A DNA stretch of 64,000 nucleotides from Enchytraeus crypticus (Eukaryota > Annelida > Clitellata > Enchytraeida > Enchytraeidae): assembly GCA_905160935.1 (NCBI GenBank), contig CAJHZI010000780.1, positions 277,001-341,000 of the forward strand, given 5' to 3'. A program made the position numbers and the translations under genes. Within the stretch, counting starts at the first letter, position 1; each line of letters begins with the position of its first letter. Of this stretch, positions 9,823-63,745 are shown piece after piece. Below the pieces are notes generated by a model, which was given only the letters and a program-made list of their open reading frames with translations, had not been told where the DNA came from and made no database searches.

Positions 9823-12800
9823 CAATTAATCAATCAATCAAACAACCAACCAATCAATCAATCAATCAATAATAATTTAACGTCCGGTTCCTCACCATAA
9901 GGCAATGGCAGGGACGTCTCTTGCAGACTCTACACAAACAGGCGCCAAAGCACCACACTATGACGACTGAGTACACGGAGATCACGAGAGAAAGCTATAT
10001 CAAAGCAGTTCAACTCCAAGATCCAAGGCAAGCAGGTCAAAATTTAGACCAGTGGGGGAAAGAGATGGGTTCTATCATATCTCTTATCATCTCTCTCTAG
10101 TGTTCTGCCAAGCAGCAGGTCCAAAGTACATATTCCTACTCACAGGCTGATTTTCGTGCTCCGTAAGGAGCATGCCATCGATTAAAGCACACGTTGATGC
10201 AGCCGAGAGCTTGGGAATAATATGGCTTCTGAGGTAGTTTCCCATTGCCTTCGTCAGTTCTATAATGAATTAACTGCCATTTAATCCTGGGGAAAATTTT
10301 ATGGTGAAGTGGGCTCCCTCTCTTATCTTTTGCTGTATATTACAGTATATAGTGTTATATAAATTTATATTTATATAATTCTTCACTTATTTGTAAATTT
10401 CATTTATTTAGAATTGTAACTCTGCTTTGATGTATATATTAATCATTACTTAGATTAGATCAATATCATCATTCATACGTTTACATATGAATGTAAGCAC
10501 TTATTTATTTTATTTATTATTTATTATTATTATTTTTTTAATATTTTATTTTATTATTTATTTATTTAGTATTACTTATTTTATTTTTTATTTTTTATTT
10601 TATTTTAATTTAATTTTATTAATTTTGTTTTGGAGAATTTTTATTAATTAATTATTTATTATCATTTATTTATTTTATTTTATTTTATTTTTTATTTTAT
10701 TATTTTTTTATTTATTTACACGCATGTTGACCTCCTGACTCCACGTTGCAGGCAGCAGCGGCAGGGAATAGACCTGGTGCACGACCAGGCGGAGAGAGAG
10801 CTGCTCAAGGAGGTGGAGGTGCTCCAGGGAGCAGCGGCTCTGCTCGCTCGCAGCAAGGAGCAAGTGACGGAGCAGCTCAGGTGAGGTGGACTCTTCTAGA
10901 TTGATGAGATAGTAAAGAAGCTATTTAAGACAACACCTGGTAATAATAATAATAACAAAGGTTTAACGTCCGTTTCCTCATCCAAGGATGGTGTCAGGGA
11001 CGTCCCCACACAACACATCACTTCAGATCAATTCACCCAGACCTATCTGCAAAAGAAATGTGCTGAGGAGAAGCAAGGTCCTAAATGAAAGCCAGTCCGG
11101 TGATCAAAAATGGGCGAGGTAGATTGATTTTGTCTACGGTGGGAAAAGGTAAGTTTTAAGCTTGCTAGAGAATGTTGAAAGAGAAAAACAAGAGCGAAGA
11201 TTAGCAGGTAAAGAGTTCCAGATTGTCGGTGCTGCGTAAGAAAATAAACGTCTGCCTAATGATGTGAGAATATTTGGAGCAGAGAGAAGATTGGCATCGG
11301 TGGAACGAAGTGCACATGAGGGACGATAGTACACCATGTTAGGACCCATACTTGGGTTTGTTTAATTCTTTTATGACCACGTTGTAGACGGTCTACCCCA
11401 CACTGTCAATGTACCTCTGTGAACTTCTTAATGGTTCTTGGAATATTTGGTTCCTCTTTGTACAATGTTGATATCATCTTGCCCTGTACACACATATTTA
11501 CATCCACCTGATTTTTTATGTAAATATTTTCGCAATATCTTTCTGATCAATTTTGATAAATTCTCAGTTCATTTAATTTTGCTTTAGCTTTTGATATCTA
11601 AAAATCAATAAATATAGTACATAAATAAAATAAATAAATTATGAACTTGATCTGCAGGCTGAATCGTAAAGTGGCCTACAAGCTGGACAAAGACCTTGTG
11701 GACAAGTTCAAGGCTTTGTCCATAGACGAGTACAACAGGGAGCTAAAGAAAGGAAACCTACCAGCGTCTGGAGCAACAATAACAACAGCCAAACTCTCTA
11801 ATGAGTATGTAATAAGATTGTTGCCAGTTCTTGTTACTTATTCTTGTATTTTGAGGAATATATTTCCTCTGTTTCCTGGAACAATGAAATAGACGTTAAA
11901 GAAAAGCGGATCACTCCAGACCAGTGGCAGGTCATGCATCATATGAATGCATCATATGAATGCATCATATGAATGCATCATTGCAGGTACACCGCTCCAG
12001 GCCAGTGGCGGGTCATGCGTCATATGAATGCATCATATGAATGCATCATTGCAGGTACACCGCTCCAGACCAGTGGCGGGTCATGCATCATATGAATGCA
12101 TCATATGAATGCATCATTGCAGGTACACCACTACAGACTAGTGGTAGGTCATGCATCATATGAATGCATCATATGAATGCATCATTGCAGGTACACCACT
12201 CCAGACCAGTGGCAGGTCATGAATCATATGAATGCATCATATGATGCTGCATTGTAGGTACACCACTCCAGATCGGTGGCGGGTCTTGCATCATATGAAT
12301 GCATCATATGATGCTGCATTGTAGGTACACCACTCCAGACCAGTGGCAGGTCATGCATCATATGAATGCATCATATGAATTCATGAATGCATCATATGAA
12401 TGCATCATATGATGCTTCGTTGCAGGTACACCACTCCAGATCAGTGGCAGGGGTTCACAACACAGAACATCAACGAGGCAGAGAAGCAGAGACAGAACAC
12501 GGCTTCCCTTAGAAACATCCTCGACGGAATATTTCTGTCGACATACGAGGACGTACTGAGACAAAAGGAAGCCACGGATGCAGCTCTGTTACGTCGTATT
12601 GAAGAGACAAGAGATGCCAAGAATAAACTGGAGGATCATCTGGCTAAGGTTGGTGGAAGGCTTCCCTTAGGATATGTGTCAGCTGATTTCATTGAAATAT
12701 CTAAAAGAGTAGTCAATTTATTTTAATATCTGACAATTTTGTCGATTGACTTTGCATTCAATTATTTGATACTTTGTTTTATTGCAGTTGAAAGATAAAT

Positions 12801-13720
12801 TATGGTTTTATAATATTTAATTATTGTTATTCCTGTCATATTTGCTGTAATAAAAGTTGAATAGATTTAGAGCCGATATTGAGAAAACCTTATTAATTTA
12901 TTAATTTTAAACTTTTTATATTGGTTTATTTTAAGTAATTTATTGATTTGTAGTATCAGTTTCGCTCAACCTCTTTATTGATTAATTTCTGGAAGGATTT
13001 CTGGATTGATCACTCGGTCGATCGATTGGTTGAGTGATTGATTGATTGACTGATTGATTGAATGACTGACTGATTGATTGATTGATTGATTGATTGACCA
13101 GGTGAAGGCACAGATAGTAGAGATGGATGATAACGTAGAGAGATTAGAGAGAGCTATAGAAGACAAACAAGACCCCCTCTCTCTCTCTCTCTCTCACGAG
13201 ACTTGATTGATTGATTGATTGATTGATTGACCAGGTGAAGGCACAGATAGTAGAGATGGATGATAACGTAGAGAGATTAGAGAGAGCTATAGAAGACAAA
13301 CAAGACCCCTTCTCTCTCTCTCTCTCTCACGAGACTTGATTGATTGATTGATTGATTGACCAGGTGAAGGCACAGATAGTAGAGATGGATGATAACGTAG
13401 AGAGATTAGAGAGAGCGATAGAGGACAAACAAGACCCTCTCTCTCTCGCTCACACTAGACTCGACAACAGAACCTACCGGCCTAACATCGAGTTGTGTCG
13501 TGATAGCGCCCAGTACCGACTGGTCGAGGAGGTGCTCATCATCGGTCAGTCCCTGGACAAGCTGAGGACGTCCCTGACAGCGGTGAAGAGCTCCATCAAG
13601 AATCTGCTGAGACGACAGGTGGAGCTAGAGGAAGAGATAGAGGTCAAGGTTAAGACCCTGTACATCGATGAGGCGCAGTGTATGGCTCTTAGACGATCCA
13701 GCCACGTACAGCAGTTCTAG
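8498..13720 (+). CDS. TEKT1: tektin-1 (six exons)
   Basis: Tektins are coiled-coil filament proteins inside the doublet microtubules of cilia and flagella. Exons: 8498..8687, 9601..9766, 10752..10880, 11658..11804, 12426..12648, 13364..13720. All introns are GT-AG, all phases agree, and the product is 403 residues (human TEKT1 is 418). The start reads MANLYRPPPKFMPPEW, like the PPKFLPSEW start of TEKT1. Exon 3 gives QGIDLVHDQAERELLKEVEV, and the last exon carries the tektin signature RPNIELCRD and ends IDEAQCMALRR. The start ATG is the first after a possible 5' UTR acceptor. AATAAA follows at 14116. The exon 5 head, exon 6 head and the stop-codon region are each copied in neighbouring DNA (separate entries). 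Tektin-1 fits better than tektin-2 or -4, based on recalled sequences. Confidence 0.92.
8862..8952. repeat. AATC-type tetranucleotide tract, TEKT1 intron 1, donor side
   Basis: Imperfect AATCAATC and GTCAGTCA words on the coding strand, in the first third of intron 1. They are complementary to the GATT-type tract at 9271-9592 at the other end of the same intron. Confidence 0.8.
9271..9592. repeat. GATT-type tetranucleotide tract, TEKT1 intron 1, acceptor side
   Basis: About 320 bases of GATTGATTGA with TGACTGAC and GATAGAATGA variants. It ends 8 bases before the exon 2 acceptor AACGAGCAG. Confidence 0.9.
9787..9872. repeat. AATC tract after TEKT1 exon 2 donor
   Basis: AATCAATC repeats start about 20 bases after the donor GTCCTC. 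They run straight into an antisense LINE-B end (9873), whose own 3' tail is this tetranucleotide. The tract is therefore at least partly a retroposon tail. Confidence 0.85.
9873..10085 (-). mobile_element. LINE-B 3' end (TTGA-tailed), antisense in TEKT1 intron 2
   Basis: On the plus strand TTTAACGTCCGGTTCCTCAC, then CAGGGACGTC and AAACAGGCGCCAAAGCACC. It is colinear with the longer copy at 26385-26880, which includes reverse-transcriptase C-terminal coding sequence. Truncated at its 5' end. Confidence 0.75.
10085..10330. repeat. Repeat F copy
   Basis: Shares several blocks, including GGCTTCTGAGGTAGTTTCCC and TTTAATCCTGGGG, with 33125-33475. The family could not be named. Confidence 0.6.
10500..10735. 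repeat. TTTA-rich low-complexity tract
   Basis: Imperfect ATTT and TTTA repeats in TEKT1 intron 2, ending about 15 bases before the region of the exon 3 acceptor. Confidence 0.85.
10938..11350 (-). mobile_element. LINE-A 3' end with RT C-terminal remnant
   Basis: The minus strand encodes an end with RLFSYAAPTIWNSLP and TFSSKLKTYLF, followed by a 3' UTR ending GAGGAAACGGACGTTAAACC and a TTA-type tail. APxxWNSLP...KxxLKTxLF is the usual C-terminus of CR1/Jockey-group reverse-transcriptase ORFs. The copy is 5'-truncated. It fills much of TEKT1 intron 3. Confidence 0.8.
11909..12345 (+). repeat. 68-bp array of decoy TEKT1 exon 5 acceptors
   Basis: Six copies of ATTGCAG/TGTAG plus the exon 5 head GTACACCACTCCAGACCAGT, with heads starting at 11987, 12055, 12123, 12191, 12258 and 12325. 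A seventh, acceptor-less copy begins near 11909. The real exon head starts at 12426. Between the heads lies CATATGAATGCATCATATGA filler. Copies 1-4 keep CAG; copies 5 and 6 have TAG. Each holds about 25 nt of exon sequence that stays close to the true exon. Confidence 0.92.
13025..13363 (+). repeat. two decoy copies of TEKT1 exon 6 head
   Basis: GATT tracts carry CAG plus the exon head GTGAAGGCACAGATAGTAGA at 13102 and 13235; the real exon begins at 13364. The unit is about 130 bases. Each copy keeps roughly 100 nt of exon, then runs from a CT-expanded version of the exon's CTCTCTCGCTCAC into AGACTTGATTGA, where the true exon reads AGACTCGACAAC. The join between exon copy and TTGA tract is therefore at microhomology. 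Translated in the exon frame, both decoys reach TGA soon after. Confidence 0.93.
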
Positions 13721-14072
13721 ATCAATAGATCAATTGATCAATAGCTCAATAGATCAATAGATCAGTGGATCAGTGGATCAATAGATCAGTGGATCAGTGG
13801 ATCAATAGATCAGTGGATCAGTAGATCAGTAGATCTATAGATCAGTGGATCAATAGATCAGTAGATCAATAGATCAGTGGATCAATAGATCAGTGGATCA
13901 ATAGATCAATAGATCGGTAGATCAATAGATCAGTAGATCAATAGATCAGTGGATCAATAGATCAGTGGATCAATAGATCAGTGGATCAATAGATCAATAG
14001 ATCAACAGATCTGTGGATCAATAGATCAGTAGATCAATAGATCAGTGGATCAATAGATCAATAGATCAGCCA
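13721..14072. repeat. GATC minisatellite at TEKT1 3' end
   Basis: About 350 bases built from GATCAATA and GATCAGTG 8-mers, starting at the first base after the TEKT1 stop. At its far end (14066-14089) a second copy of the exon's last bases, AGCCACGTGCAGCAGTTCTAG minus one base of identity, appears again. The array therefore sits between two copies of the stop-codon region. Confidence 0.9.
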
Positions 14073-14569
14073 CGTGCAGCAGTTCTAGAGAACCTGGAGC
14101 TGATCGATAGATTACAATAAACAATTATTTATTAATTACAATGCGATCATGATTAAAATAAACAATTAATGGTTATTTGTATAGTGCAATGTAATTACAA
14201 TAAACATTCGTCATTTACTAACAGTGCAATTTTATCGCAATAAAGAATTGATAATTATTTGTGTATAGTGCAACCTAATGTTATAAACAAGTCATCTTTT
14301 AACACACAAATCAGCGTCGTCTGTGTGACTGAGACAGTATTGTAAACTGACGTTGTTTTAACTATTTTTCTCTATTGTGGCCTTGCTTAATGGTTTTGAG
14401 TATTTATTAGAGATGGACAAATCTTATCATGTAACTACTAATGAAGAGTTTCTTAGGCTTATGTAGCCAGCACATAGTGGACTGTCTAATGATCTATATG
14501 TTGATGCGGGTTAGAGACGGTGCTTCATGGCGAGCTTCCTAGAGACTCTCTGCTTAGAATTTAGATACA

Positions 14570-18403: not shown

Positions 18404-19088
18404 ATATGTCTCACGTAACCTCTAGTGCACTCCTGCACTCGTGAGGTTAGATGCACTAAGGACAGTTAGATGAAGGTCAGCTGCACTTAAGTTGCTCTAT
18501 GACCTCCTGTAAGCAGCATGGGTACATGTACATCATTGTTGCTATTTGGACCTCGACAAGTTTATTAGCTCCAGTTTCTAACAAAGAATCAGTTGAGACT
18601 AAAACTGACTGTTTAATATCGACGAGTGCTACGATTACTACTTTCGTCACTTTATTTCCTTCCTGATTTCTCTCGGAGTTCAATGTCTAACTGCTCCAAA
18701 TCATATATTCCTGAGTAAAGTTTCTAAAATTTCGCTCATGATTTATATTTCAACTCCATTATGCATATTTCAGCTTCAGGACTTGCCGGAAGATGTCTAA
18801 TCACCAGCACGCTCACGTGGTTGTCATTGATGACTATAGCACTCTAATTGTTGTTGTAACTATTTTTATTAATCGTTTTGTTTTGTATATATCAGTTTCA
18901 GGACATGTCTGAAGATGTCTAACCACCAGCACGCCCACGTGGTGGGAGATCTCTTCTTTAACATGCTGGGCATGAAGTGCTTCATCTTCAGACGTGATCA
19001 GGTGTGTGCGGAGAGAGCGTGGTGGGGAAAGTGTGAGCGCCACAAGTATGAATGGTCGGCTGAGACACGCGATGCTATACAGTACTAG
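15606..19088 (+). CDS. group III secreted phospholipase A2 (two exons)
   Basis: A calcium-dependent enzyme that cuts the sn-2 ester of phospholipids; the family includes bee-venom PLA2 and non-venom secreted enzymes. Exons 15606..16114 and 18896..19088, donor GTAAGT, acceptor ATATCAG, phases match, 233 residues. A hydrophobic signal peptide spans residues 1 to about 20, followed by an acidic propeptide ending at a furin-like RAKR (100-103). The catalytic domain has the Ca-binding WCGVG (112-116) and active-site CCREHDHC (134-141, His138/Asp139). Exon 2 supplies a CLK-type helix, paired cysteines and a stop; AATAAA lies at 19126. The long pro-region and missing extra domains resemble invertebrate secreted forms. 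Nothing in the sequence shows whether this one is a venom component. A copy of the exon 2 head lies just upstream (separate entry). Confidence 0.9.
16125..17260. repeat. AATC-rich intron DNA with 41-bp array
   Basis: It starts 10 bases after the PLA2 donor and is dominated by AATCAATC words. Between about 16902 and 17160 a 41-base unit containing AATCAATCAACCCACCGTCA is repeated about six times almost without change, so that part is recent. Confidence 0.9.
16219..16355 (+). mobile_element. SINE-A copy in PLA2 intron
   Basis: Full length, inserted in AATC repeats. A box TGGCGAAGTCGG is perfect; the B-box region reads GAGTTCAAATCC. Tail GAAAACTGACGTTAACCTTA. Confidence 0.92.
17261..18085. other. 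AT-rich PLA2 intron DNA with CAA run
   Basis: No plus-strand exon seen. A (CAA)n run lies at about 17860-17893. A minus-strand candidate exon at 17746-17844 is listed separately. Confidence 0.5.
17746..17844 (-). CDS. candidate first coding exon with membrane segment
   Basis: Thirty-three codons from an ATG to a strong donor (AATAAC followed by GTAAGT at 17745). They encode SLFTGTSCGVSAILYCVLRV, a probable single membrane span, then basic residues. The spacing GTS..SA.LY..YR recalls the N-terminal membrane segment of the mitochondrial ligase MUL1, but I found no other MUL1-like exon nearby. The exon would be nested in the PLA2 intron on the other strand. It could be chance. Confidence 0.3.
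18090..18410. repeat. CT-rich microsatellite tract
   Basis: Imperfect TCTCTC, TTCTCTT and CTATCT repeats. The Ser/Leu/Phe-rich frames in it are not genes. Confidence 0.95.
18774..18824 (+). repeat. decoy copy of PLA2 exon 2 head
   Basis: TTTCAG, then CTTCAGGACTTGCCGGAAGA and on to CACGTGGTTG match the true exon 2 head (from 18896) at most positions and keep its frame. The copy stops after about 47 nt, where it joins the end of a Repeat D tail (18822-18860). The spacing to the real acceptor is about 117 bases. Confidence 0.9.
18822..18860 (+). repeat. Repeat D 3' tail fragment
   Basis: TTGTCATTGATGACTATAGC then ACTCTAATTGTTGTTGT, directly joined to the exon 2 head copy. Confidence 0.7.
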
Positions 19089-44499: not shown

Positions 44500-47400
44500 A
44501 TGGCAACAGTCGATAATATCATTCAGCGACTTACACAAGGTGGGCGAATCAATCAATCAATCAATCAATCAAATATCCAATCATTCTATCTACCAGTCAC
44601 TCAGTTAATTAGAGTCAATGAATCACTGAATTAATCAATGAATAAATGAGTAAATGAATGAATGAATCAATCAATCAATGAATTAGTCAATCAGTCGATT
44701 GATCATTCAACGAATCAAAGAAAGAATCATGTAAATCAGCTTTGAATCAACCAATCAACTAATTAATCCATCAGTAAATCATCAAACCAAGTAATCAATA
44801 AATCAATCAGTCAGCTAGTCTGTCGATCAATCGGTCAATAGCTCAGTAAATTAAACTATCTACTATATCTTTCTATATCAATCAATCAATCAGTCAATCA
44901 ATAATCAATTAGATTCGTAATCAATCTATCTCATAAAATTAGTCCAAGTAAGCAATCATTTAAATAGCCTTAATCTTTAAGTAAAAATTATTGATGGATT
45001 GATTGATCAATGGATTGATTGATCGATTTATGGACTGGCTGATTTATCGATTGACTAAATGTTAGATTGATCGATTGACTGAATGTTTGATTGATTGATT
45101 GATTGGTTGACTGACTGACTGTTTGATTGATTGCCTGACTGACTGTTTGATTGATTGATTAATTGACTGACTGATTGACTGATTGATTGATTGACTGATT
45201 GATTGATTGATTAACTTATTGATTGATTGATTGATTGAGGAGCAGGGCCTGTGGGAGGAAGGGAAAGTGTGACCCTATCATACGCAGCCATACTCTACCT
45301 GTGCACCCAGTGTGTCATCACGGGTTGATCGATTGATTGATTGATTGACTGATTGATTGATTGATTGCTGATCAGGACCTGTGGGCGGCAGGGGCAGTGT
45401 TATCCTATCGTACGCTGACATACGCTACCTGTGCGCCCAATGTGTGACGAATAGATTGATTGATTGATTGACTGATTGATTGATTGATTGACTGATTTAT
45501 TGATTGATTGATTGCTGATCAGGATCTGTGGGCGGCAGGGGCAGTGTTACGGTATCGTACGCTGATATACGCTACCTGTGCACCCAGTGTGTGGCGAATA
45601 GAGTGATTGATTGATTAATTGATTGATTAATTAATTTATTGATTGATTGCTGATCAGGGCCTGTTGGAGGCAGGGGTAGTGTGACCCTATCGTACGCGGA
45701 CATACGCTACCTGTGCGCCCAGTGTGTCAGGGTGCTGCAGTGTCAACCCATGCTCATCGAGCTCAAACCTCCCCTGAACGTCTGCGGTGGGTGACAACAA
45801 CAACAACACTTACAGCTTAGACAATGACAACATCACACATTATAGAACCAAAGCCAAACTGACGAGCAAATATCAAAAAGATCAAACCATCGGTTCAAAT
45901 CCAATATCCAGAATACCAGTTCAAGAAAATTAAATTAAATAAAGTTTACCAATTGGTACACACTTACATGTACATGTAAACATGTGCTACCATGCATGCA
46001 TATATTCATATTACCCACTAGCTAATTTCTTTTCCTAAAACAATCTATTGATTGATTGATAAAGCTTAGAATTGTTTTATAGATAAAGTGTGCTTAATAT
46101 TCAATAGTGATTTGATTAGTTTGGATATTTCTTATTGATTTCTCTAATAAAATTTTCTATGCAATTTTGATTGATTGAAGCTTCTCTTATTTGATTTTAT
46201 AGCCTAGGCCTATTGATTGATTGATGCATTGATGGATTGGTCCAGACTTTTGCCTCTCTAATCTAATTGATTGATTGAGTGACTTATTGATATCGACTCA
46301 GTCTGTATCTCACTGATTGATTGACTGCTTCATTCATCTGGACTCTACCTGATTAACTAATTGATTGATACAGACCACATTGCTTCCAGGCCCTCACTAT
46401 CATTTCATTACTAATTATTATCTGGAGCCAGTGACAATGTCGGTAAGATACTCGACCGCGGATCAGTAGGCGCGGGCTTAAAATCCTGGGCTCGCCCGTC
46501 ACTGACTTCGCATTCGAGTGAGGAAACTGACGTTAACATTAGCTTTAGCTTGACTTTTAAACATTTATTTCAGACTACCACCATTTTATTACTAGCTTTA
46601 CTATGAGCTTTTTAAAATTTTAGGCGATATTCACGGTCAGTACACGGATTTGTTGAGAATTTTCCACCACGGGGGGACCCCCCCTCAGGTGAACTACCTG
46701 TTCCTGGGGGACTACGTGGACAGGGGAGACCAGTCCATAGAGGTCATCAGTCTGCTGATGGCCTACAAGGTCAAGTACCCGGAGAACTTCTTCTTGCTCA
46801 GAGGCAACCACGAGGACTACGTCATCAACGAAATGGGCGGCTTCAGAAAGGAGTGTTAGTAGAATAGGAAATATAATAAAAAACGTATTATTTAGTTGAT
46901 TAAAAGCAGCATTTGGTTGATTAAAAGTAGTATTTAATTGATTAAAAGTAGTATTGTTCGATAATTTATTAGCTGATTGATTGATTGAGTGATTTGACGG
47001 ATGGATTGAAAATATATTGATTGATGTGTAGGTGGATTAACCTAGCGATTCATTTGATTGATGTGTAGGTGGATTAACCTAACGATTCATTTGATTGATG
47101 TGTAGGTGGATTAACCTAGCGATTCATTAGATTGATGTGTAGGTGGATTAACCTAACGATTCATTTGATTGATGTGTAGGTGGATTAACCTAGCGATTCA
47201 TTAGATTGATGTGTAGGTGGATTAACCTAACGATTCATTTGATTGATGTGTAGGTGGATTAACCTAGCGATTCATTTGATTGATGTGTAGGTGGATTAAC
47301 CTAGCGATTCATTTGATTGATGCAGGTGAGGACAGGTTTGTTGGTGTAGGAGTGAAGGTGTGGGAAGAGATCAATGAAGTGTTCAAGTGGATGCCCGTCA

Positions 47401-50033
47401 TGGCTCTGATCAACGGGCGAATAGCCTGCATGCACGGAGGTCAGATACTAACAAAATACTGATATACTAGAAATACGGGTTTTATAAAGCTGGTAAAGAT
47501 AATGTTAACGTCAGTTTCCTCACTCGAAAGCGATGTCAGTGACGGGCGAGCCCAAGATTTAAACCTCGCACATACTTAATAACTTTAATATAGCTTAATT
47601 TAATAACTTTAATATCTTTGTACTTAATTCACCATACTAACAATTAATTATCAGTACCTATTAAGATATGTTGGCAAAAGTATTTTACCGACATCGCCGC
47701 TGGCTCCAGCCAGTAGTCGGTAAAATATTCCACCGCGGATCAGTATGTGGAGGGTTCAAACCCTGGGCTCGCCCGTCACTGACATTGCTTACGAGTGAGG
47801 AAACCGACGTTAACATTAGCTCTACCTTTTTTTACAAAATTCAAATTTTTATGAAACAATGCACTTTTATGCAGAGCGTTTATGAAATGGTTCATTTTCT
47901 GCAGTAGCTATTATTAAATAATTTACTTTTTGACTACAGTTTTTGTGAAATAATTCGTATTTATGCTAAAATATTAATTGCCATATTAACTATGCAAATT
48001 AAACGTAAATAAATACAGTGATATAAACAAATAACTAGAAACTGTTTTATTAAAATTAGAATTGCTTGTACCTAATTACGTTCATCCTATTTCGCCAAGG
48101 GGTGACTAAGTGTATTTCATTTGGCGCCGCCTCTGTTCCATGTTTTACGAGGAATAAATAACTGCACCAATCGTAAACTGTACGCGTCGTAAGAATCGAC
48201 TATAATCACGAAGTGAGAAGACAATGGCAACTATCTCAGGGACCATATAGAAACCATTGCCAGAGTGGCAGCTACATAGTAAGGTTATATCTGTTCAGTA
48301 AGCTTGTCACTTGTTCTGTGTGGCTCAGGAATTTCCTCGAAGATCAAGAGCCTTGATCAGATCCGTCGAATTAAGCGACCACTAGAACGCCTCAATAAAG
48401 GTTTGTCTCTGTCTAATCAATCAATCAATCTATCAGTCAATCAATCAATCAATCAATCAATTAGAATTAAGAGAAGCTCTTTTCTCTAGTAAGCATGTGT
48501 TATCAAGTCGAACAAGATTGATGTGCTAATTAGTGTTGACCCATTCCAAACAGAATTTGTTCTAAAGGGATACCAGTCAGAACCGAGAGAAAGCAACAAG
48601 AATCCAATTCAGATCTCGATACCATATTTCGAAATCTATAGGCTATATTAAAATTTACAGGAGGCATAATTAGTGTGTTATAGCTGCCTTTGTAATACAA
48701 GTAATTAATGATTGAACTTGGCTGAGACGGTAACATCGACAAAGCGTTGATTGATTGGAATATTAATTTTCGACTGGTCTATTTAATATTTGAAGGGTGA
48801 GGCTTGTTGATTGATAGGCGTGGCCTATGACCTAGTGTGGGCGGATCCACGAGTGATTGACTGCGTGACGTTGATTGATTGACTGAAAGGCGTGGCCTGT
48901 GACCTACTGTTTGACGTTGATTGATTGACTGATAGGCGTGGCCTGTGACCTAGTGTGGGCGGATCCCAGGGATAACCTGGCTGGAGGGAAGGACTTTGTG
49001 TTCAATGACTCACGCAACCTCTCCTGTTACTTCAGCTCCGATAGTGTGGAGGACTTCCTCGAGAGATTTGACCTTGACCTCATCATCAGGGCCCACGAGG
49101 TTTGGTAGCATTCGTCAAGTTAGCCAGTTTCTCCTTTCGGTAAAGCTGCTAAAGCTTATGTTAACGTCAGTTTTCTCACTATAAAGCGATGTAAGTGAAG
49201 AGCGAGCTCAGGATTTGAACCCGCATCTACTGATCCGCGGTCGAATATCTTAATGACATCGCCACTGGCTCCAACCAGTTTGGTAGCATTCTTTAAGTTA
49301 GTCAGGCAGTTTATCTCTTGACTCCACTTCTCGGCTAATACAGCGTTTAAGAAGGAACTGACCTGATGACACACAATGTCTCGGTGGCTCATTGTGTAAG
49401 CGCGTTAGTCAACGGCATGAAGTTTTAAAATGCTGTTCCTGAGGTCCTGGGATCAATTCGCGATAGAGCTGATCAGAGAGTTAAAACCTCGGACATACAC
49501 CTTTTAGGATACACTGATACAACTGACGTCTTGAAGAGAATACTTTTAGGAGTCTGACCTTGACGTTAAACCCACACTTAAATAAATAAATACAAATAAG
49601 TGCAGATCGCAGGACTTGGACAGCCACATGCCCAGGTAATAATTTCATAATTATAAGATAATAATAATAATACTAATAACAATAATAATAATAATAATTA
49701 ATCAAGATATAATATACCTATAATTTCTCAAGATATTAGTGGATGATATCAACAGTATTTTGCAGTAGATTTTATGTTTTGTTGCAGTGCAAGGACAATG
49801 GTTACGAGTTTTTCGCAGGCAAGAGGCTGGTAACACTGTTCTCAGCACCCAACTACTGTGGCAGGAAGAACAACGAGGCTGCTGTTATCTCTATAGACTG
49901 CAACCTCGTCTGCAGCTTCAATGTACGTTGTTGTTGTTGTTGTTGTTAGTGCCGATATCTCTATAGACTGCAACCTCGTCTGCACCTTCGATGTTGTTGT
50001 TGTTGTTAGCCTGAGCTCCAGCCGCGTTACTGA
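44500..50033 (+). CDS. PP1-like serine/threonine protein phosphatase (eight exons)
   Basis: A PPP-family metallophosphatase closest to PP1. Exons: 44500..44539, 45658..45786, 46624..46854, 47326..47439, 48329..48400, 48936..49099, 49788..49922, 50010..50033. All phases agree, giving 302 residues. The start [13 protein letters not shown] aligns with the N-terminus of PP1. Metal and catalytic motifs are present: GDIHGQ, GDYVDRG, RGNHE, a CMHGG in place of CCHGG, RAHE and SAPNYCG. Divergence is clear in the [10 protein letters not shown] loop (PP1: INRIYGFYDEC) and the acidic [12 protein letters not shown] stretch, so it is a PP1-like paralogue rather than PP1 itself. Some donors are weak (GTCAGA, GTTAGT, GTGGGC). 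The last exon (ELQPRY and stop) is the least certain; another acceptor at about 50055 would also give a short tail. Exon-edge copies surround exons 2, 4, 6 and 7 (separate entries). Confidence 0.88.
44545..44960. repeat. AATC-type arm, phosphatase intron 1
   Basis: Starts 6 bases after the donor and holds about 400 bases of AATCAATC-type words, many degenerate. It faces the GATT-type arm at 44990-45657 in the same intron. Confidence 0.88.
44990..45657. repeat. GATT-type arm, phosphatase intron 1
   Basis: GATTGATTGA, TGACTGAC and GATCGATT words running up to the true exon 2 acceptor. It contains the three decoy exon heads. Confidence 0.88.
45243..45596 (+). repeat. three decoy copies of phosphatase exon 2 head
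   Basis: Acceptor-like CAG plus about 74 nt of exon head at 45246, 45376 and 45523; the true exon starts at 45658. All read close to CCTGTGGGCGGCAGGGGCAG and end near CCCAGTGTGTG, keeping the [12 protein letters not shown] translation. The unit is 130-147 bases with GATT filler. Used as exons, each would soon hit a stop in the filler. Confidence 0.93.
46431..46555 (+). mobile_element. SINE-A copy in phosphatase intron 2
   Basis: Head TCTGGAGCCAGTGACAATGT (mutated A box), B box decayed (GGCTTAAAATCC), tail intact. Confidence 0.88.
46975..47322 (+). repeat. 37-bp array abutting phosphatase exon 4 acceptor
   Basis: Eight copies of GATTGATGTGTAGGTGGATT plus AACCTAGCGATTCATTT. Each contains TGTAG followed by GTGGAT, which mirrors the true junction GATGCAG followed by GTGAGG at 47325/47326. 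The array probably arose from the acceptor region itself. Alternating AACCTAGCG / AACCTAACG variants suggest two-unit steps. Confidence 0.85.
47485..47711 (-). mobile_element. SINE-A copy, interrupted
   Basis: The minus-strand copy is split by about 100 bases of AT-rich DNA (about 47577-47675, AATAACTTTAATATAG repeated). Both halves are otherwise intact. Confidence 0.82.
47708..47826 (+). mobile_element. SINE-A copy, head-to-head with the previous one
   Basis: Starts in AGCCAGTAGTCGG (A box shortened by 4 bases), B box GGTTCAAACCC, full tail. With the minus-strand copy it forms a near-perfect inverted pair in intron 4. Confidence 0.85.
48418..48470. repeat. AATC tract after phosphatase exon 5
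   Basis: Begins 17 bases after the donor GTTTGT. GATT-type words lie at the other end of this intron, from 48745 to 48935. Confidence 0.88.
48814..48935 (+). repeat. two decoy copies of phosphatase exon 6 head
   Basis: GATAG plus GCGTGGCCTATGACCTAGTG (33 nt of exon head) at 48818, and GAAAG plus GCGTGGCCTGTGACCTACTG (about 21 nt) at 48890. The true exon starts at 48936 after GACTGATAG. The second decoy has AAG instead of TAG. Confidence 0.92.
49142..49277 (-). mobile_element. SINE-A copy near phosphatase exon 6 donor
   Basis: Full-length minus-strand copy starting 42 bases after the donor. It is flanked by a 30-base imperfect direct repeat (GTTTGGTAGCATTCGTCAAG at 49100; GTTTGGTAGCATTCTTTAAG at 49279) that includes the donor. 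Confidence 0.9.
49393..49592 (+). mobile_element. SINE-C, SINE-B-like
   Basis: GTCAACGGCATGAAGTTTTA and CTGTTCCTGAGGTCCTGGGA match the SINE-B head, but the 3' half differs and ends TTGACGTTAAACCC with a AAATA tail. A partial second copy is at 61825-61905. Confidence 0.6.
49955..49992 (+). repeat. duplicated tail of phosphatase exon 7
   Basis: 38 bases, ATATCTCTATAGACTGCAAC to TTCGAT, repeat the last 38 bases of exon 7 (49885-49922) with three changes. TTG runs ending in TTAG lie on both sides. Confidence 0.93.
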
Positions 50034-50133: not shown

Positions 50134-51446
50134 TAGGCATGATATGATGAGGATGATGATGATATGATGATAGCGATATGATGATGATAATCATGATGAT
50201 GCCGATATATGATGATGATATGATGATGATGATGCCGATATATGATGATGATATGATGATGATGATGCCGATATATGATGATGATATGATGATGATGATG
50301 CCGATATATGATGATGATATGATGATGATGCCGATATATGATGATGATATGATGATGATGATGCCGATATATGATGATGATATGATGATGATGATGCCGA
50401 TATATGATGATGATATGATGATGATGATGCCGATATATGATGATGATATGATGATGATGCCGATATATGATGATGATATGATGATGATGATGCCGATATA
50501 TGATGATGATATGATGATGATGATGCCGATATATGATGATGATATGATGATGATGATGCCGATATATGATGATGATATGATGATGATGATGCCGATATAT
50601 GATGATGATATGATGATGATGATGCCGATATATGATGATGATATGATGATGATGATGCCGATATATGATGATGATATGATGATGATGATGCCGATATATG
50701 ATGATGATATGATGATGATGCCGATATATGATGATGATATGATGATGATGATGCCGATATATGATGATGATATGATGATGATGATGCCGATATATGATGA
50801 TGATATGATGATGATGATGCCGATATATGATGATGATATGATGATGATGATGCCGATATATGATGATGATATGATGATGATGCCGATATGATGATGATAT
50901 GATGATGATGATGCCGATATGATGATGATGATATGATGATGCCGATATGATGATGATATGATGATGATGATGCCGATATATGATGATGATATGATGATGA
51001 TGATATGATGATGCCGATATGATGATGATGATGCCGATATATGATGATGATATGATGATGCCGATATATGATGATGATATGATGATGCCGATATATGATG
51101 ATGATATGATGATGCCGATATATGATGATGATATGATGATGATGATGCCGATATGATGATGATGATGCCGATATATGATGATGATGATATGATGATGCCG
51201 ATATATGATGATGATGATATGATGATGCCGATATGATGATGATGATGCCGATATATGATGATGATGATATGATGATGATGATGCGGATATGATGATGATG
51301 ATGATGCCGATAGATGAAGATGATGATGCCGATATGATGATGATGATGCTGATATGATGATGATGATGATAATCATGATGATGCTGATATGATGATGATG
51401 ATGATGATGATATGATGATGATGATGATAATCATGATGATGCTGAT

Positions 51447-51481
<35 letters not shown>

Positions 51482-51950
51482 AATCATGATGATATCGATA
51501 TGATGATGATGATGATGATATGATGAGGATGATGATGCCGATATGATGAGGATGATGATAATGCTGATATGATGAGGATGATGATAATACTGATATGATG
51601 AGGATGATGATAATACTGATATGATGAGGATGATGATAATGCTGATATGATGAGGATGATGATAATGCCGATATGATGAGGATGATGATAATACTGATAT
51701 GATGAGGATGATGATAGTACTGATATGATGAGGATGATGATAATGCTGATATGATGAGGATGATGATAATGCGATATGATGAGGATGATGATAATACTGA
51801 TATGATGAGGATGATGATAATGCTGATATGATGAGGATGATGATAATACTGATATGATGAGGATGATGATAATGCTGATATGATGAGGATGATGATAATG
51901 CTGATATCATGAGGATGATGATAATACTGATATGATGCCGATGTAATCAT
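50134..51950. repeat. 1.8-kb GATGAT minisatellite, 33-bp unit
   Basis: Units of GCCGATATATGATGATGATA plus TGATGATGATGAT (33 or 30 bases) to about 51290, then degenerate GATGAT, then 26-28-base units with GATATGATGAGGATGATGAT to 51945. It begins about 100 bases after the phosphatase stop. Six-frame openness here is a product of the repeat. Confidence 0.96.
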
Positions 51951-53303: not shown

Positions 53304-54112
53304 TTAGAAGAGTTTTAGATGCCCTGTGACTTGATCGACAAGTTCTTTAGGACCTGAAATTATAATACACATTTCTTTAACAAAAGAGTGCTGCAATTTG
53401 ATTAATTAACAATGGAAATATATTACATGTATGTTACAAAAGTAAATCAGAATATGTTGCTTAAATAATAATAATAATAATAATAATGGTTTAACGTCCG
53501 TTTCCTCATCCGGGGATGATGTCAGGGATGTCCTCACAGCACACATCACTACAGATCAATTCACCCAGACCAATCTGCCAAAGAAATATACTGAGGAGAA
53601 GTAAGGTCCTAAACCAAAGCCAGTCCGGTGATCAAAAATGGTCAGGTTTATTGAAAAATTGTCATTAAAATATCAATTGTACAGTTTAACCTATTTGAAG
53701 ACAAGAATAAGTTGTACGTCACATCTCGTCTACTGCAGAATTATTTAATGTTACAGCAAAAATATTCATTTCACTCACGAAGCATAAAAAGATCAACGTT
53801 GTCATAGTGTTACAAACTCAGAGACGAGCATTTACAACTTGATGGCGCTACCTGACGCTCTACCCACTGAGCTGTTCAGACATTCGTTTAAATCTACTGT
53901 TACTAGACAAGATCATCAGAGCCTGACGCACACCTGAGCCACACCGGGCAGAGGTCAGTTGAATAGATGATTAAATACCTCGTCCTACCTACCTGTATGA
54001 CTATCTCAATGACTGATTGATTGATATATTGATTGATTGATACCTGGTCCTACACCTAGCACAGTCCTGGAGCCTGGAGCAATCTGAGTCCTGCCTGTAT
54101 GACTATCTCATT

Positions 54113-54187
<75 letters not shown>

Positions 54188-57126
54188 TGATTGATCGATC
54201 GATTGATTGATTAATTGATACCTGGTCCTACACCTAGCACAGTCCTGGAGCCTGGAGCAACCTGAGTTCTGCCTGCATCCCTTACCAGGCTGGTAACAAG
54301 TCCAGCGTTCTTAGCATTGGACGCCAACTCCAGTCTAAATAACAAAATAAATAACAATTAGAGTGCTACAGTCATCAATGACAACATCGAGCACTATTGA
54401 GACAAAATCAAGCCGGCGAGCAAAAAGAAGGTCCAAAAACGGTGCAAATTCCAAAATCCAGATAATCAGTCCAAAGTAAAGGGAATTAAAGAAAAGGAGG
54501 TTTAGGAGCAGGTCTACAACAGTCATCAACTATTAAACATGGTTCTGATGTAAAATAACGATTTAACGTCTGATTTCACACCCGAAAGTGACGTCAGGGA
54601 CGGCTCTAGCAGATATTACACACAGTTCTGCAGTACAGTGAAAATTTAACGACTGATTTCACACTCCAAAGTGACATCAGGGACGACTCTAGCAGATACT
54701 ACAACTACAGGTAGTTGTGCGCTTTCAGAACTTGTAGCTACAGAGATAAATGAGAAAGTATCTCTCTCTGCTACACACTATATTAATGCTTGAAATAATG
54801 ACACTACAAACCAACTCCAAATATTAAAAAGAAAAAGAATAACATCAATTGAACTGGACGAGTCCGAAGTATTTTAGAGTACGCAAAAATGCAAGGTCGG
54901 TAGATGAAACAAGTAAAAGTGATAACTATAACTGTGTTAGCTTTAATGTCAGTTTTCGTTTAATCAAAAAACAGAGTAGATACTAAAGGCTTGAGCTTTT
55001 AATTTTAGGCTGGAGCCAGTGGCGATGTTGGCAAGATATTTCGACTACGGATCAGTACATGCGGAGTTCAAATCCTGGGCTCTCCCGTCACTGACATTGC
55101 TTTCGAGTGAGGAAACTGACAGTAATATTAGAATTGTTAAATGTCTGCAGCCATGTCTACATGTAAGTGGAACTTTAAATCATCTAGCAACACTCCTACT
55201 TGGTTTTATATACCATATACTTGTCATAAACATACACATTGTAATTTAATGTAGAAAAACTACGCGACCACAATACTATTTGCTTTTATATACCATATAC
55301 TTATACTTAAACGCTGCTTATATTCAACTTACAGCGACTGCTCTGAATCAGTCCTAAGAACGACCTTGGCCTGACCTTGACCTCTCCATGCCTCAAGTAG
55401 GTCGGGGTATTTGTCGTTGAGCTGCTGGTAAGCCATCACAGCAGCATGGCAGCACTGAGTAGATACAATACAATACAATACAATACATCATCATCATCAC
55501 AGCAGCATGGCAGCACTGAGTAGATATAATACAGTATAATACAGTAAAATACAGTACAGTACACTAAACTACAATACAATATAATACAATAATATATACT
55601 AAAACAGAATCCTTCACAAAAGGCTAAGACTTATCACAACATAGAGCAGTCAATAAATTAAGAAAATGTGGTTCTAAGGTAGTTTACCTTTGCCCTAATA
55701 AGTGTTTTCTTACAATAACATCACTTAAAATTTTCAGGTTGTCTTGAGACAAAGTGGAAAATTATATATAAGAGAAAACGCTCAAGAGTAGAGAATTGCA
55801 TAGCGTTAAGAAATCTCAATCAGAGCTCACATCACTGAAAAAGCTTAAATTATCGAAATGCAGCAACAACAAACAAATCAAGCACAATAGAATTGTTGAT
55901 GATTTAACCTGCGCTGGACATTGGTCCATATCCACGAATAGGACAGTTATCAAAAATCTATAAATCATATCCATGTAGAGGATATTAATCAAAAATCTGA
56001 GAAATATATCAAGAATCTAGGCAGCCTATTTAAAGAAACATTTCTCAAAATATGGCTTCCCACACATCGCCTTATGCAAGAAAATATAATTAATTAAAAT
56101 CTTCATTAAAATGAATAAATGAATTAAAATGAATAAATGAATTAAAAAGAATAAACACATTAAATTAATACAAAGATTGTTGTATTTACAAATACCTGTG
56201 CGGCAGTTTTTCCTTTTCCCATCTTCAGATCAGTTCTGACAATCAACACTAGCTTGCACTCCCCGCTAGGATTGTCGGCAAACCCTTCTGACATAATCTA
56301 CGAAAATAGCGACAAAATAAGTTCAATACTGAATGATTAATTTATCAAATATATAATGAATAATTGTAATTACAATAATAATTATTCTCTAAAGAGAATA
56401 ATTTTAGGGAGCAATTGCCAAGCTATAAATTGTACAAGTTATAAATGTATAAAAAACATGTGTATAATGTCCAAAACAAACCAGGACTGTAGGCTATGAT
56501 AGCGAGAAATATGTTTAACACAGCCAGCAGAAATAGTAAAGAGAATAATTAAATACATGTAGATAACACTAAATACATTTTGAAATACCAAAAATTGTAA
56601 AATACTAAAGCTGCAAATCTTAGTCTAGAGCTCTAACATTTAACAGACTGTAAAATACACAATACACATCAGAGGCAATATTCTGATGATTTTATTGTTC
56701 ATGACAAGTCACAGACATTTCACTATTTTCAATTTTAAATTACTGTTGTACAATTACAGTTCAATTTACAGTATCATTTATTATAAAATACAATATTTAA
56801 TCATTAAATTAATCCAGAAATTAGAAATAAAATCATTAGCAAAGAATATAATATATTCTCGTACATAAAAAGTAACCTAACAATTAGAGTGCTACCGTCG
56901 TCCAGAACAACATCGAGCATTATTGAGACAAATCCACACCAGTGAGAAAAAAGAAAATCCAAAACGGTACAAATTCCAAAATCCTGAATATTGACAGTGT
57001 TACCTCAGTTCGACGTAAAGGAAACTGTCTACTTGCTCCACTCCTCTTCCATAGTAGCCACCCCACCCCCAGACCACAGCTCAGACCTATAGCTGCTCCC
57101 ACAATCAGGCTGTCAGCTACCATCAT
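53304..57126 (-). CDS. PTRH2: peptidyl-tRNA hydrolase 2 (five exons)
   Basis: The Pth2-type enzyme releases peptides from peptidyl-tRNA; the animal protein is anchored in the outer mitochondrial membrane. Exons: 57126..57004, 56297..56196, 55454..55333, 54334..54222, 53353..53304. Phases agree and the product is 169 residues (human 179). The N-terminus has one membrane segment ([19 protein letters not shown]). The catalytic domain shows [28 protein letters not shown] (catalytic His) and [20 protein letters not shown], and ends [11 protein letters not shown]. The start is the first ATG of a tandem pair. Introns include SINE-A, Repeat D, a LINE-A end and copies of exon edges (separate entries). 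COA7 is divergent, with about 1.3 kb between the starts. Confidence 0.95.
53468..53650 (-). mobile_element. LINE-A 3' end, in PTRH2 intron 4
   Basis: AATAATAAT tail, GGTTTAACGTCCGTTTCCTC and GATGTCAGGGATGTCC, then CAATTCACCCAGACCAATCT. Matches 10938-11100 closely; the coding part is absent. Confidence 0.8.
53838..53885 (-). other. tRNA-like fragment
   Basis: Minus-strand CAGCTCAGTGGGTAGAGCGT is a perfect tRNA D-arm/A box. The B-box side (AAGTTGTAAATGC) is decayed and no cloverleaf can be drawn. Likely a SINE head or tRNA pseudogene. Confidence 0.4.
53980..54100 (-). repeat. duplicated tail and donor of PTRH2 exon 4
   Basis: On the coding strand, 54097..54044 repeats the last about 53 nt of exon 4 (GCTCCAGGCTCCAGGACTGT to GGACCAG) followed by the donor GTATCAATC. 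A shorter, older copy with GTAGGACGAGGTATTTAATC lies at about 54000-53980. Spacer DNA is GATA and AATC repeats. Confidence 0.9.
54113..54186. repeat. (GATA)n microsatellite
   Basis: About 18 GATA units between PTRH2 exon 4 and its duplicated tail. Confidence 0.96.
54345..54505 (-). repeat. Repeat D copy, PTRH2 intron 3
   Basis: AACAATTAGAGTGCTACAGT, CATCAATGACAACATCGAGC and GGTCCAAAAACGGTGCAAAT. It starts 11 bases upstream of the exon 4 acceptor, so its TTG tail on the coding strand lies against the splice site. Confidence 0.75.
54550..54710 (-). repeat. two tandem LINE-tail-like units
   Basis: ATTTAACGTCTGATTTCACA, CGAAAGTGACGTCAGGGACG and CTCTAGCAGATA occur twice (54560 and 54645), about 85 bases apart. 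A variant of the shared LINE/SINE end. Confidence 0.6.
55008..55130 (+). mobile_element. SINE-A copy, PTRH2 intron 3
   Basis: Head GGCTGGAGCCAGTGGCGATG; A box TGGCGATGTTGG; B box AGTTCAAATCC; tail GAGTGAGGAAACTGACAGTA. Confidence 0.9.
55493..55520 (-). repeat. decoy copy of PTRH2 exon 3 acceptor and head
   Basis: The coding strand reads TATCTACTCAG, then TGCTGCCATGCTGCTGTGAT, exactly as at the true exon 3 start (55454), and then GATGATGATGTATTG filler up to the true acceptor. The 21-nt exon head is identical. Confidence 0.92.
55521..56160. other. PTRH2 intron 2, AT-rich
   Basis: ATACAGTA and AATACAATAC repeats near 55525-55600; a decayed Repeat F piece near 55670. No exon seen. Confidence 0.5.
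56878..57002 (-). repeat. Repeat D copy at PTRH2 exon 1 donor
   Basis: ACAATTAGAGTGCTACCGTC to CCAAAATCCTGAATATTGAC. It occupies the first 120 bases of intron 1, starting within a few bases of the donor at 57003. Confidence 0.7.
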
Positions 57127-60752: not shown

Positions 60753-60952
60753 TTCAACGTTTTCTGCGCCAGCACACGTATATTACAGTAATTTAGCATC
60801 AAAGTCCTCACTTAAGTTGCACGTCAATTTACATGTCACCCACTACCATTGAGATGACAAAGCTGTCAGCTGAAAAGCTACACATCTTCCTGGGAACTTT
60901 ACATACATTTTTAATTAATTTTACATTGAATTTGAAAAATGAAGTTCAAAAA

Positions 60953-62040: not shown

Positions 62041-62044
62041 GAAA

Positions 62045-62115
62045 TGTTTGCCCTTCATATCAATGTATGAAGGGCAAACATATGTCTTATGTCTGTATGT
62101 TTGCCCTTCATATCT
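62045..62115. repeat. 15-bp hairpin with a third copy
   Basis: TGTTTGCCCTTCATA (62045-62059) pairs with 62066-62080; TGTTTGCCCTTCATATC recurs at 62099, where it joins a truncated SINE-A. Confidence 0.85.
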
Positions 62116-62117
62116 AT

Positions 62118-62192
62118 CTAATCCTGGGCTCGCCCGTCACAGACATCGCCTTCGAGTGAAGAAACTGACGTTAACATTAGCTTTACCAGCTA
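62118..62192 (+). mobile_element. SINE-A copy, 3' half only
   Basis: Starts at ATCCTGGGCTCGCCCGTCAC; tail complete to CTTTACCAGC. Confidence 0.8.
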
Positions 62193-62497
62193 TGTGTTTG
62201 TTTAAAAAGAGTATGTAAGATTTAGTAACCCTGTCTAAATTAAATTATTAAGTTGGATTAACTTATGTAGAGTTAACTTAGCAGTAGCACCAATACATTC
62301 AGAAGCACACCTACGCTGAACACAAACAATTGCAAGTATACTCCTATAATCCTGCACACGTGCATATCGCCATGCACCAGAACACATTGTATGCTAAATT
62401 TTATCCATTCACATACATTAGCGCTCTAAATAGCAAAAAACAAATCGACAGAGAAATAGCTTCGCTACATTACTACAGGTACAGACAGTATAGTAAA

Positions 62498-62634
62498 AAG
62501 CTGGTAAAGCAAAGGTTAACGTCAGTTTCCACACTCGAAAGTGATGTCAGTGACGGGCGAGCCCAGGATTTGAACCCCACACCTACTGATCCGCGGTCGA
62601 GTATCTTACCGATATCGCCACTCACTGGCTTCAG
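62498..62634 (-). mobile_element. SINE-A copy
   Basis: Near full length, minus strand; B box GGTTCAAATCC, a 4-base duplication (CACT) in the head. Confidence 0.9.
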
Positions 62635-62675
62635 TACTACCAGCTAGAGAGAGCAGGAGATCACTACAATAGAAT

Positions 62676-62713
62676 CCTATTTACCTCTAACAGTATTGTT
62701 AGAGGTAAATAGG
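62676..62713. repeat. 17-bp perfect hairpin
   Basis: CCTATTTACCTCTAACA pairs with TGTTAGAGGTAAATAGG around a 4-base loop, 41 bases beyond the SINE-A copy. Confidence 0.9.
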
Positions 62714-63245
62714 CTTTCTTTTAGATATAAATTTAAATGTAATTTTTACTTAGATTATTACTATGGAACTCTTTCTGTAGAGTAGTCTCGAAGACCGATT
62801 TCTGCCTTGACACTGCTATAACAGTTTTCGTTGTTGATAAAAAATAAAAATAATAACTGCTGTTGTGGCACGATTACAGTTGATAGAACAAATTGCATGA
62901 GGAACAGAGTGGAATGTAAATAGTCTTCATTCTTTAACACAAAATCATGGATTCTAGACACCATATGGAGTGGACAAGAATGCTTACACTGCGTATTGTG
63001 CATATTGCACAAAAAGCATAAGAGAAAAATGAGCATTTATAGCATAAAGTGAATAAATATGGACACTGTTTAGCAAAATTTCTCGAAATTATTTCACTTC
63101 CAGACACATATAAAAAATATTTCAAATAGCTATCAATATGAGTTTCAGGCCAGAGCATATTTATGTGGTTTCAATCACAAATAGATAATTGAATGTTTAA
63201 TACATATATACCACCATTATCAGAAATACTTGAAGTTAGATGGCA
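62714..63245. other. arfaptin 3' flank, no gene seen
   Basis: Probably the 3' UTR of the arfaptin gene on the minus strand. AT-rich; nothing else recognised. Confidence 0.4.
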
Positions 63246-63407
63246 CTAGCTGCCCTTCTCTAGAAATGAAGACAGTTTCTCGGAGGTGGGTGTCTTCATG
63301 CGAATATTAAACTGCTTCAGAGTCTCCTCGAGTCCAATCTGATTACCAGAGAAATACGCCGCCACAGCATTGTGAAACATCAGCAGCTGCTTGTGCATCA
63401 CCTTCAC
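63246..63407 (-). CDS. ARFIP: arfaptin, last exon
   Basis: Arfaptins are BAR/AH-domain proteins that bind Arf and Arl1 GTPases on Golgi membranes. This exon runs from an acceptor (GCAG, next base 63407) to a TAG at 63246 and encodes 53 residues: [40 protein letters not shown], then a short tail ending FLEKGS. This matches the end of the AH domain, where arfaptins read KVLHNQLxLFHNAIxAYFAGNQxxLEQTLKQFxIKLxTP. Vertebrate proteins end SWLEEQ; here the tail differs. The remaining exons are right of the window. Arfaptin-1 and -2 cannot be separated from this piece. Confidence 0.92.
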
Positions 63408-63419
63408 CTGCATCATTCA

Positions 63420-63745
63420 ATCAATCAATCAATCACCTTCACCTGCATCATTCAATCAATCAATCAATCACCTTAACATGCATCAATCAATCAATCACTA
63501 TCACCTGCGTCTATCAATCAATCAACTTCATCTGCATCAATCAGTCAATCAACTTCATCTGCATCAATCAGTCAATCAATCACCTTCACTTGCGTCAATC
63601 AATCAGTCAATCAATCACCTTCACCTGCGTCAATCAATCAGTCAATCAATCACCTTCACCTGCGTCAATCAATCAGTCAATCAATCACCTTCACCTGTGT
63701 CAGTCAATCAGTCAATCAATCACCTTCACCTGCATTATTCAATCA
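63420..63745 (-). repeat. array of ten decoy arfaptin acceptors
   Basis: The coding strand repeats GATTGATTGACGCAG followed by GTGAAGGTG, which is the real acceptor plus the first nine exon bases. Plus-strand positions of the CACCTTCACCTGC-type blocks are about 63435, 63469, 63497, 63522, 63550, 63581, 63617, 63651, 63687 and 63721. The unit is 25-36 bases. Most keep both CAG and GTGAAGGTG; a few read ATG, AAG or TAG-like variants. Confidence 0.93.

Follow-up and report, generated by a model that had tools for sequence, protein, structure and literature searches.

Genes and exon-edge copies in the window

The window analyzed here is a 64,000-nt stretch of the genome of the annelid Enchytraeus crypticus (contig CAJHZI010000780.1, positions 277,001 to 341,000 of the forward strand), in which pieces of sequence spanning an exon edge are copied into the adjacent intron of the TEKT1, PLA2, PP1-like, PTRH2 and arfaptin genes. 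TEKT1 has six exons with an intact joined frame of 403 aa and matched the Tektin family of Pfam (PF03148, E 8e-122). Among the 120 matches listed, its best named relatives were those of Platynereis (56%), Ridgeia (52%) and Lingula (49%), and metagenome proteins reached up to 70%. The PP1-like gene carries Metallophos and STPPase_N domains, and by Pfam PLA2 is a group III PLA2 and PTRH2 a PTH2 protein. The 56-aa last exon of the fifth gene gave no match in Pfam; we take this gene to be arfaptin, a name suggested by its sequence.

Exon edges of the window were scanned with 24 nt of exon at each edge, requiring at least 19 of 24 matching positions within 2.5 kb. This strict scan was entered with 27 edges and actually tested 26, since the PTRH2 exon 3 probe was unplaced; the arfaptin edge was outside the scan, and the PTRH2 exon 4 probe fell on the decoy copy. 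Copies were detected at 7 edges, and those at PTRH2 exon 3 and the last arfaptin exon were read by eye. Altogether, truncated copies lie near nine exon edges and near the stop region of TEKT1 (Table 1), so that the edges named in a first-pass annotation of this DNA, in TEKT1 (exons 5 and 6 plus the stop region), PLA2 (exon 2), the PP1-like gene (exons 2, 6 and 7), PTRH2 (exons 3 and 4) and arfaptin (last exon), were confirmed. The extra acceptors are fewer than the 25 or so first counted (21 strictly, 23 with a pair of CAG/ATGAAG sites; the slash marks the splice junction), and the one or two extra donors were found as stated.

The array before TEKT1 exon 5 is the most regular. The strict scan found six copies with AG/GTACACC and one degraded copy, and seven acceptors, the real one included, have a common short core (TTGCAG or TTGTAG, then GTACACC), the full exon following only the last. 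Each decoy of TEKT1 exon 6 consists of a tract, CAG and about 90 nt of exon. The arfaptin array contains, besides its six CAG/GTGA decoys, the two CAG/ATGAAG sites. At PTRH2 exon 4, (ATCA)n in sense orientation follows the real donor and the decoy alike, and at PTRH2 exon 3 the flanking repeat is TGTAT/TATTG, not TTGA. Exon 4 of the PP1-like gene, which had been listed as probably copied, was rejected as a copied edge: the 37-bp units before it have nothing in common with the real edge beyond the tract and AG/GTG.

Table 1. Positions of genes, arrays, decoys and repeats in the window (decoy and real positions are first exon bases unless stated otherwise)
Feature	Position	Strand	Decoy and real edges	Remark
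TEKT1 gene	8498..13720	+	exons 8498-8687, 9601-9766, 10752-10880, 11658-11804, 12426-12648, 13364-13720	intact joined frame, Pfam
Sense (TGAT)n tract before TEKT1 exon 2	9289..9580	+		no decoy; ends about 20 nt before the acceptor
68-bp array before TEKT1 exon 5, six decoy acceptors AG/GTACACC	11947..12412	+	11987, 12055, 12123, 12191, 12258, 12325; real 12426
133-bp array before TEKT1 exon 6, two decoy acceptors	13035..13363	+	13102, 13235; real 13364	scan
TEKT1 stop region, duplicated across TAGATCAA array	13700..14089	+	copies at 13700, 14068	no splice-site copy
PLA2 exon 2, one decoy head	18780..18901	+	18780; real 18902	strict scan
PP1-like exon 2, three decoy heads with (TGAT)n tracts	45246..45657	+	45246, 45376, 45523; real 45658
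37-bp array before PP1-like exon 4	47017..47322	+		not an edge copy; tract and AG/GTG the sole common parts
PP1-like exon 6, two decoy heads	48818..48935	+	48818, 48890; real 48936	strict scan
PP1-like exon 7, tail and donor side, one copy 3' of the real donor	49923..49992	+	real last exon base 49922
PTRH2 exon 4 donor edge, one downstream copy	54044..54221	-	decoy last exon base 54044; real 54222
PTRH2 exon 3, one decoy head	55455..55515	-	55515; real 55454	by eye
35-bp array before last arfaptin exon, six CAG/GTGA decoys	63408..63747	-	63729, 63694, 63659, 63624, 63504, 63442; real 63407	by eye
tRNA-like core matches	4971, 16250, 28309, 32877, 34449, 43601, 46451, 47728, 55040	+		word match, 22 nt
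tRNA-like core matches	21786, 22706, 38158, 49245, 62601	-		word match, 22 nt

Recurrence elsewhere in the genome

To determine how far such copies recur in the 524-Mb genome (802 contigs), introns were taken from 16 dynein genes and 10 kinesin genes. Gaps were resolved in 77 of 80 cases for the dyneins and 27 of 35 for the kinesins (10 kinesin loci, part of a longer list), giving 104 introns. Of these, 96 were kept, with a score of at least 5, a deviation of at most 3 applied to kinesins only, and one intron of locus L018 removed by hand. The dynein-domain profile search itself revealed three copies of one exon on contig C775 and one truncated exon copy each on contigs C775 and C199. Four hidden Markov model pieces (three on C775, one on C199) were judged to be truncated copies and removed manually, a choice that fixes which copy counts as real.

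Copies were found at 12 of the 96 acceptor edges (22 copies, 19 of them keeping AG; 11 edges with at least one AG-keeping copy) and at 7 of the 96 donor edges (16 copies, 14 keeping GT). AG and GT are retained at roughly the rate to be expected from 92% base identity. Acceptor copies are without exception upstream of the real edge, and donor copies lie downstream of it except in arrays L016 and L029, where the choice of the real copy is the likely error. The set includes head-to-tail copies holding an intron end with an exon start, or an exon end with an intron start, and arrays of several units each with an intact splice dinucleotide.

A genome-wide list of sites in which the (TGAT)n tract is followed by NCAG, a check independent of gene models, gave a similar result. 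Among the first 100 of 657 sites listed, 41 had a same-strand neighbor within 600 nt, forming 16 clusters. Eight of these were fetched, hand-picked by coordinates alone and leaning to the large ones, and by their sequence all eight appear to be repeated exon heads, with an open frame of at least 37 aa past the outermost copy. The genome-wide recurrence suggested by the first-pass annotation was thus borne out in the sample.

Thirty-five decoys were curated. Their exon heads showed a mean identity of 0.92 to the real head, substitutions between copies being usual, and a simple acceptor score was at least that of the real site in 23 of 35; the count of 34 of 35 decoys with AG is biased upward by the curation. 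The stretch from decoy to real site contained stops in all three frames in 29 of 35, indicating that splicing to a decoy would in most cases yield a truncated protein. In a pair of related dynein genes, about 85-87% identical in nucleotides over large blocks, the same exon has one diverged decoy in one gene and two in the other. At locus L041 (positions 211-435) each decoy head combines an acceptor with a donor-like CAG/GTGGGT 30 nt further along, and these heads could act as in-frame 30-nt mini-exons.

Local copy rates and origin of the copies

The local copy rate was determined across the 96 introns as the fraction of 24-mers, microsatellites excepted, that recur within 1.5 kb. Within introns it was highest in the last 200 nt (23.5%), followed by the donor side (16.1%) and mid intron (11.4%), compared with 11.9% in exon heads, 6.4% in exon tails and 2.4% at exon positions +40 to +60. 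The acceptor-side intron was copied more than mid intron (p 0.02). Exon heads had a lower rate than the final 200 nt of introns (p 0.0003) and did not differ clearly from mid intron (paired mean difference -0.047 in 77 introns, p 0.06; the rates above are pooled). An earlier profile from 73 of 77 dynein introns had a similar shape. The duplication is far above chance: 20,381 of 146,695 positions were copied at 16 dynein loci, against 4 and 6 per approximately 159,600 in first-order Markov sequences (about 0.003%).

A fall in rate from intron to exon without a peak at the edge is expected if introns duplicate freely and duplications in exons are purged. The arrays are therefore probably a by-product of a very active, mostly neutral tandem duplication of introns that is not aimed at exon edges. 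The first-pass annotation had suggested a process keeping splice-site candidates in supply at exon edges and had proposed, as the deciding comparison, a count of edge-crossing copies against copies elsewhere in introns. That count, made in the 96 introns, came out against it.

Replication slippage or unequal exchange is expected to leave short homology at the duplication junction. Where the junction with the tract could be read (10 loci), the mean microhomology was 2.75 nt compared with a null of 0.33 nt, and none of 20,000 simulations was as high, three of the ten loci having zero. In arfaptin the junction lies at the exon word GTGAT, of which the 4 nt TGAT match the tract; the matching words at loci L037 and L041 are TGATT and ATTGATT. 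The exonic part of the copies extended over 10-88 nt (18 loci measured, with TEKT1 exon 5 and PLA2 not included), close to the 9-100 nt first reported.

These junctions suggest a sequence of events. Copies are commonest in the acceptor-side intron, often home to a sense (TGAT)n or related tract. A duplication would link this tract to an exon word that resembles it and lies 10-90 nt into the exon; the DNA event itself may be replication slippage or unequal exchange from tract to exon word. The resulting unit would comprise tract, AG and exon head, or exon tail, GT and tract. The outermost copy, 3'-most at acceptors and 5'-most at donors, would retain the rest of the exon and would be the one spliced, and for this reason the reading frame should survive while the inner copies act as intron. 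Copies of this kind would be nearly neutral, and duplications within exons would be purged. The proposal of slippage or unequal exchange at TTGA tracts thus agrees with the short-word junctions of the readable loci; a TTGA tract is not required, being absent from the last 150 nt at 7 of the 12 copied acceptors (Fisher p 0.17).

Several results weigh against this reading of the arrays. No readable tract was present at the junction in 8 of the 18 loci measured, indicating that the tract-word mechanism is not universal. Of four hand-picked donor clusters, a long exon tail is repeated only in L042; the units of L043 and L044 consist of the donor plus just 4-5 exon bases, and the repeat of L045 is unclear. 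The low rate in exon interiors reflects contributions of both selection and mutation, which are inseparable here. Finally, a second haplotype showing copy-number polymorphism was not found, the TEKT1 exon 6 search matching only its own locus and its decoys.

The oriented (TGAT)n tract and alternative explanations

The tract that accompanies many of the copies is strongly oriented. The word (TTGA)6 occurs 11,428 times in the genome (overlapping matches) compared with 256 for the reversed word, and on small numbers this 24-mer reaches about 3 times the genome density in introns (5 matches), rising to some 12 times over the final 124 nt (3 matches). Tract centers per kb of intron, TGAT versus ATCA, were 2.5 versus 0 in the last 100 nt (24 versus 0 tracts), 0.57 versus 0.03 in mid intron and 0.21 versus 0.73 in the first 100 nt, and AGTT and AACT tracts were nearly absent from the 96 introns. 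An 11-nt TGAT match lay within 100 nt of the acceptor in 19 of 96 introns and its reverse complement ATCA in none (20 versus 0 with 9-nt matches). The 37 kb of the window outside mapped multi-exon genes, zinc-finger and BTB-like frames included, held three TGAT or ATCA tracts.

This distribution points to a possible role of the tract itself, as an AG-free array of branch-site-like TTGAT and CTGAT words that is kept or promoted at 3' splice sites, with the decoys as passengers. In 72 tract-free introns the eight YTRAY words occurred 44 times at positions -45 to -14 against about 22.7 expected (TTGAT 8 versus 2.9, CTGAT 8 versus 2.6, CTAAT 9 versus 2.9). Since YTRAY words including TTGAT are enriched about two-fold at the expected branch positions, the tract resembles a branch-site word repeated many times over, judging from word counts. 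The words ATTAT (23 versus 5.7), TATTA (24 versus 6.6) and TGTTG (18 versus 5.1), which are not branch words, were enriched more in the same introns, and U-rich compatibility or a mutational strand bias could yield the same tract pattern. Genome-wide, the tract was followed by NCAG 657 times and by NAGC 161 times. These counts agree in direction with the intron set, but the test is confounded, since the NAGC control includes CAG/C and TAG/C acceptors and NCAG lies nearer the repeat. Among sampled sites (19 of the 657 and 19 of the 161, along the first 100 listed) an open frame of at least 40 aa was present in 13 versus 9, an unclear difference (p 0.10). The reverse-orientation count of CAG after ATCA (2,944) is uninformative: TCAG differs from the tract by a single change, which inflates the number. 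In human CFTR minigenes the (GATT)6 allele with c.869+11C>T is reported to give minor exon skipping much like that of (GATT)7 (PMC4449874), which speaks against a functional tract. On balance we consider a functional tract possible but doubtful.

A further tentative view, of comparable standing, is that (TGAT)n tracts seed 3' splice sites in about one fifth of the sampled introns and act as duplication hot spots that multiply an acceptor module of branch words, AG and exon head, leaving about one eighth of acceptors with a series of almost identical decoys. Another oriented repeat, either (TGTAT)n or (TATTG)n, was noticed just before acceptors and beside copied edges at loci L017, L018 and L023 and at PTRH2 exon 3.

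Copying directed at the edge, in which splice sites recruit duplication and continually make candidate alternative sites, is unlikely. It would account for the number of copied edges in the 96 introns and for the top copy rate of the acceptor-side intron, but an edge peak is missing and the tract is dispensable. Neither edge targeting nor a function of the copies is supported by present evidence.

Tracts of ATCA after donors and TGAT before acceptors could also pair and draw the splice sites together; AC/GT repeats at intron ends of fish reportedly pair and join splice sites, as Lin et al. are said to have described in 2016. Both tracts are present in TEKT1 intron 1 and PP1-like introns 1 and 5, they occurred together in one intron more often than expected with 11-nt matches (3 of 4 versus 10 of 75, p 0.013; p 0.14 with 9-nt matches), and one intron (L017) pairs very strongly. 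In a folding test of 95 introns of at least 240 nt, cognate ends paired no better than swapped ends (p 0.24; 8 introns in the best 5% versus 4.75 expected). The donor-like site AGGTAAG followed by a tract occurred genome-wide 90 times with ATCA and 88 times with TGAT (80 versus 62 distinct sites by hand count), a mild bias at most. Pairing of intron ends was therefore rejected as a general rule, and we regard it as very improbable as an explanation of the tracts. An assembly artefact, with repeated or mis-phased reads inflating the arrays, would fit the identity of the TEKT1 exon 6 copies over their first 24 exon bases but is hardly credible, since copies usually differ by substitutions (as in the 35 curated decoys) and decoys are common to related genes.

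Other features of the window and genome

A further protein of the window contains Sel1 domains by Pfam and is presumably COA7-like. Fourteen matches to a tRNA-like core word (at most 5 mismatches in 22; Table 1) suggest a probable short interspersed element (SINE) family; ARAGORN called none of the 14 a tRNA. An array of GATATATGATGATG type covers 1.8 kb (50139-51937) directly after the last placed PP1-like exon and probably lies in the next intron of that gene. A 45-bp tandem repeat (6075-6481) runs in frame inside a long minus-strand open reading frame (5085-6737), which by eye looks like a C2H2 zinc-finger protein, making this an exonic repeat.

Elsewhere, phosphoesterase matches of equal score and frame length on contigs C4 (355702-355968) and C442 (850998-851264) possibly mark a stretch that is duplicated or stems from a second haplotype. 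On contig C178 (634799-637527) a dynein heavy chain has long open frames; it and two neighboring kinesins whose domain is almost intron-free on contig C252 (65170-68659) may be retrogenes, their relatives being intron-rich.

Relation to known systems and significance

The first-pass annotation knew of no named system of this kind, which was too strong, since both boundary-crossing duplication and a minisatellite with multiple donors are already in print. Tandem duplication is described as an established route to new introns, with few source sequences identified, and in potato a duplication across an intron-exon boundary made a new intron, by a model traced to Rogers in 1989 (PMC4974935). That duplication resembles those of E. 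crypticus in crossing the boundary, in the truncated exon head that remains on the upstream side and in doubling the 3' splice signals; the potato case is a single event with a reported new intron, whereas here many multi-copy arrays are found whose copied sites are no more than candidates for splicing. The minisatellite of human 6-16/IFI6 has tandem units that each carry a splice site at the exon edge, with multiple donors (Turri et al. 1995, cited in PMC4526556). It concerns the donor side of one human gene with reported alternative use, in contrast to mostly acceptors in many genes here. CFTR has the same tetranucleotide directly upstream of an acceptor, a (GATT)n tract 33 nt before exon 7 with 5-7 polymorphic repeats, described in the account of the repeat without mention of exon-head copies (PMC4449874). 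In Drosophila novel introns arose from local tandem duplication, likewise raw material for new splice sites, but of coding sequence with a proto-splice site rather than of existing edges (PMC2891723). The CeRep25B minisatellite of Caenorhabditis elegans is over-represented near alternative splicing regions, much as the arrays lie near splice decisions, but it carries short motifs and is not described there as copies of adjacent exon edges (PMC4039745).

No report of acceptor-linked TGAT tracts or of genome-wide exon-edge arrays was present among the matches listed in the open-licence full-text literature, subscription journals being outside its scope. The phenomenon is real, recurrent and of a known kind, with a density that seems unusual as judged from one genome and with an oriented tract at acceptors that was not expected; the array density and the link to the tract look new.

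If about one eighth of acceptors carry copies, as in the 96 introns, the genome offers many natural replicates of differing age. They also raise a well-defined question about splicing, as at TEKT1 exon 5, where seven like acceptor cores precede one full exon. Should (TGAT)n tracts indeed seed and multiply acceptors, E. crypticus would hold a standing genome-wide supply of raw material from which new introns and alternative acceptors could arise, and would offer a natural setting for testing how the spliceosome chooses among identical 3' splice sites.

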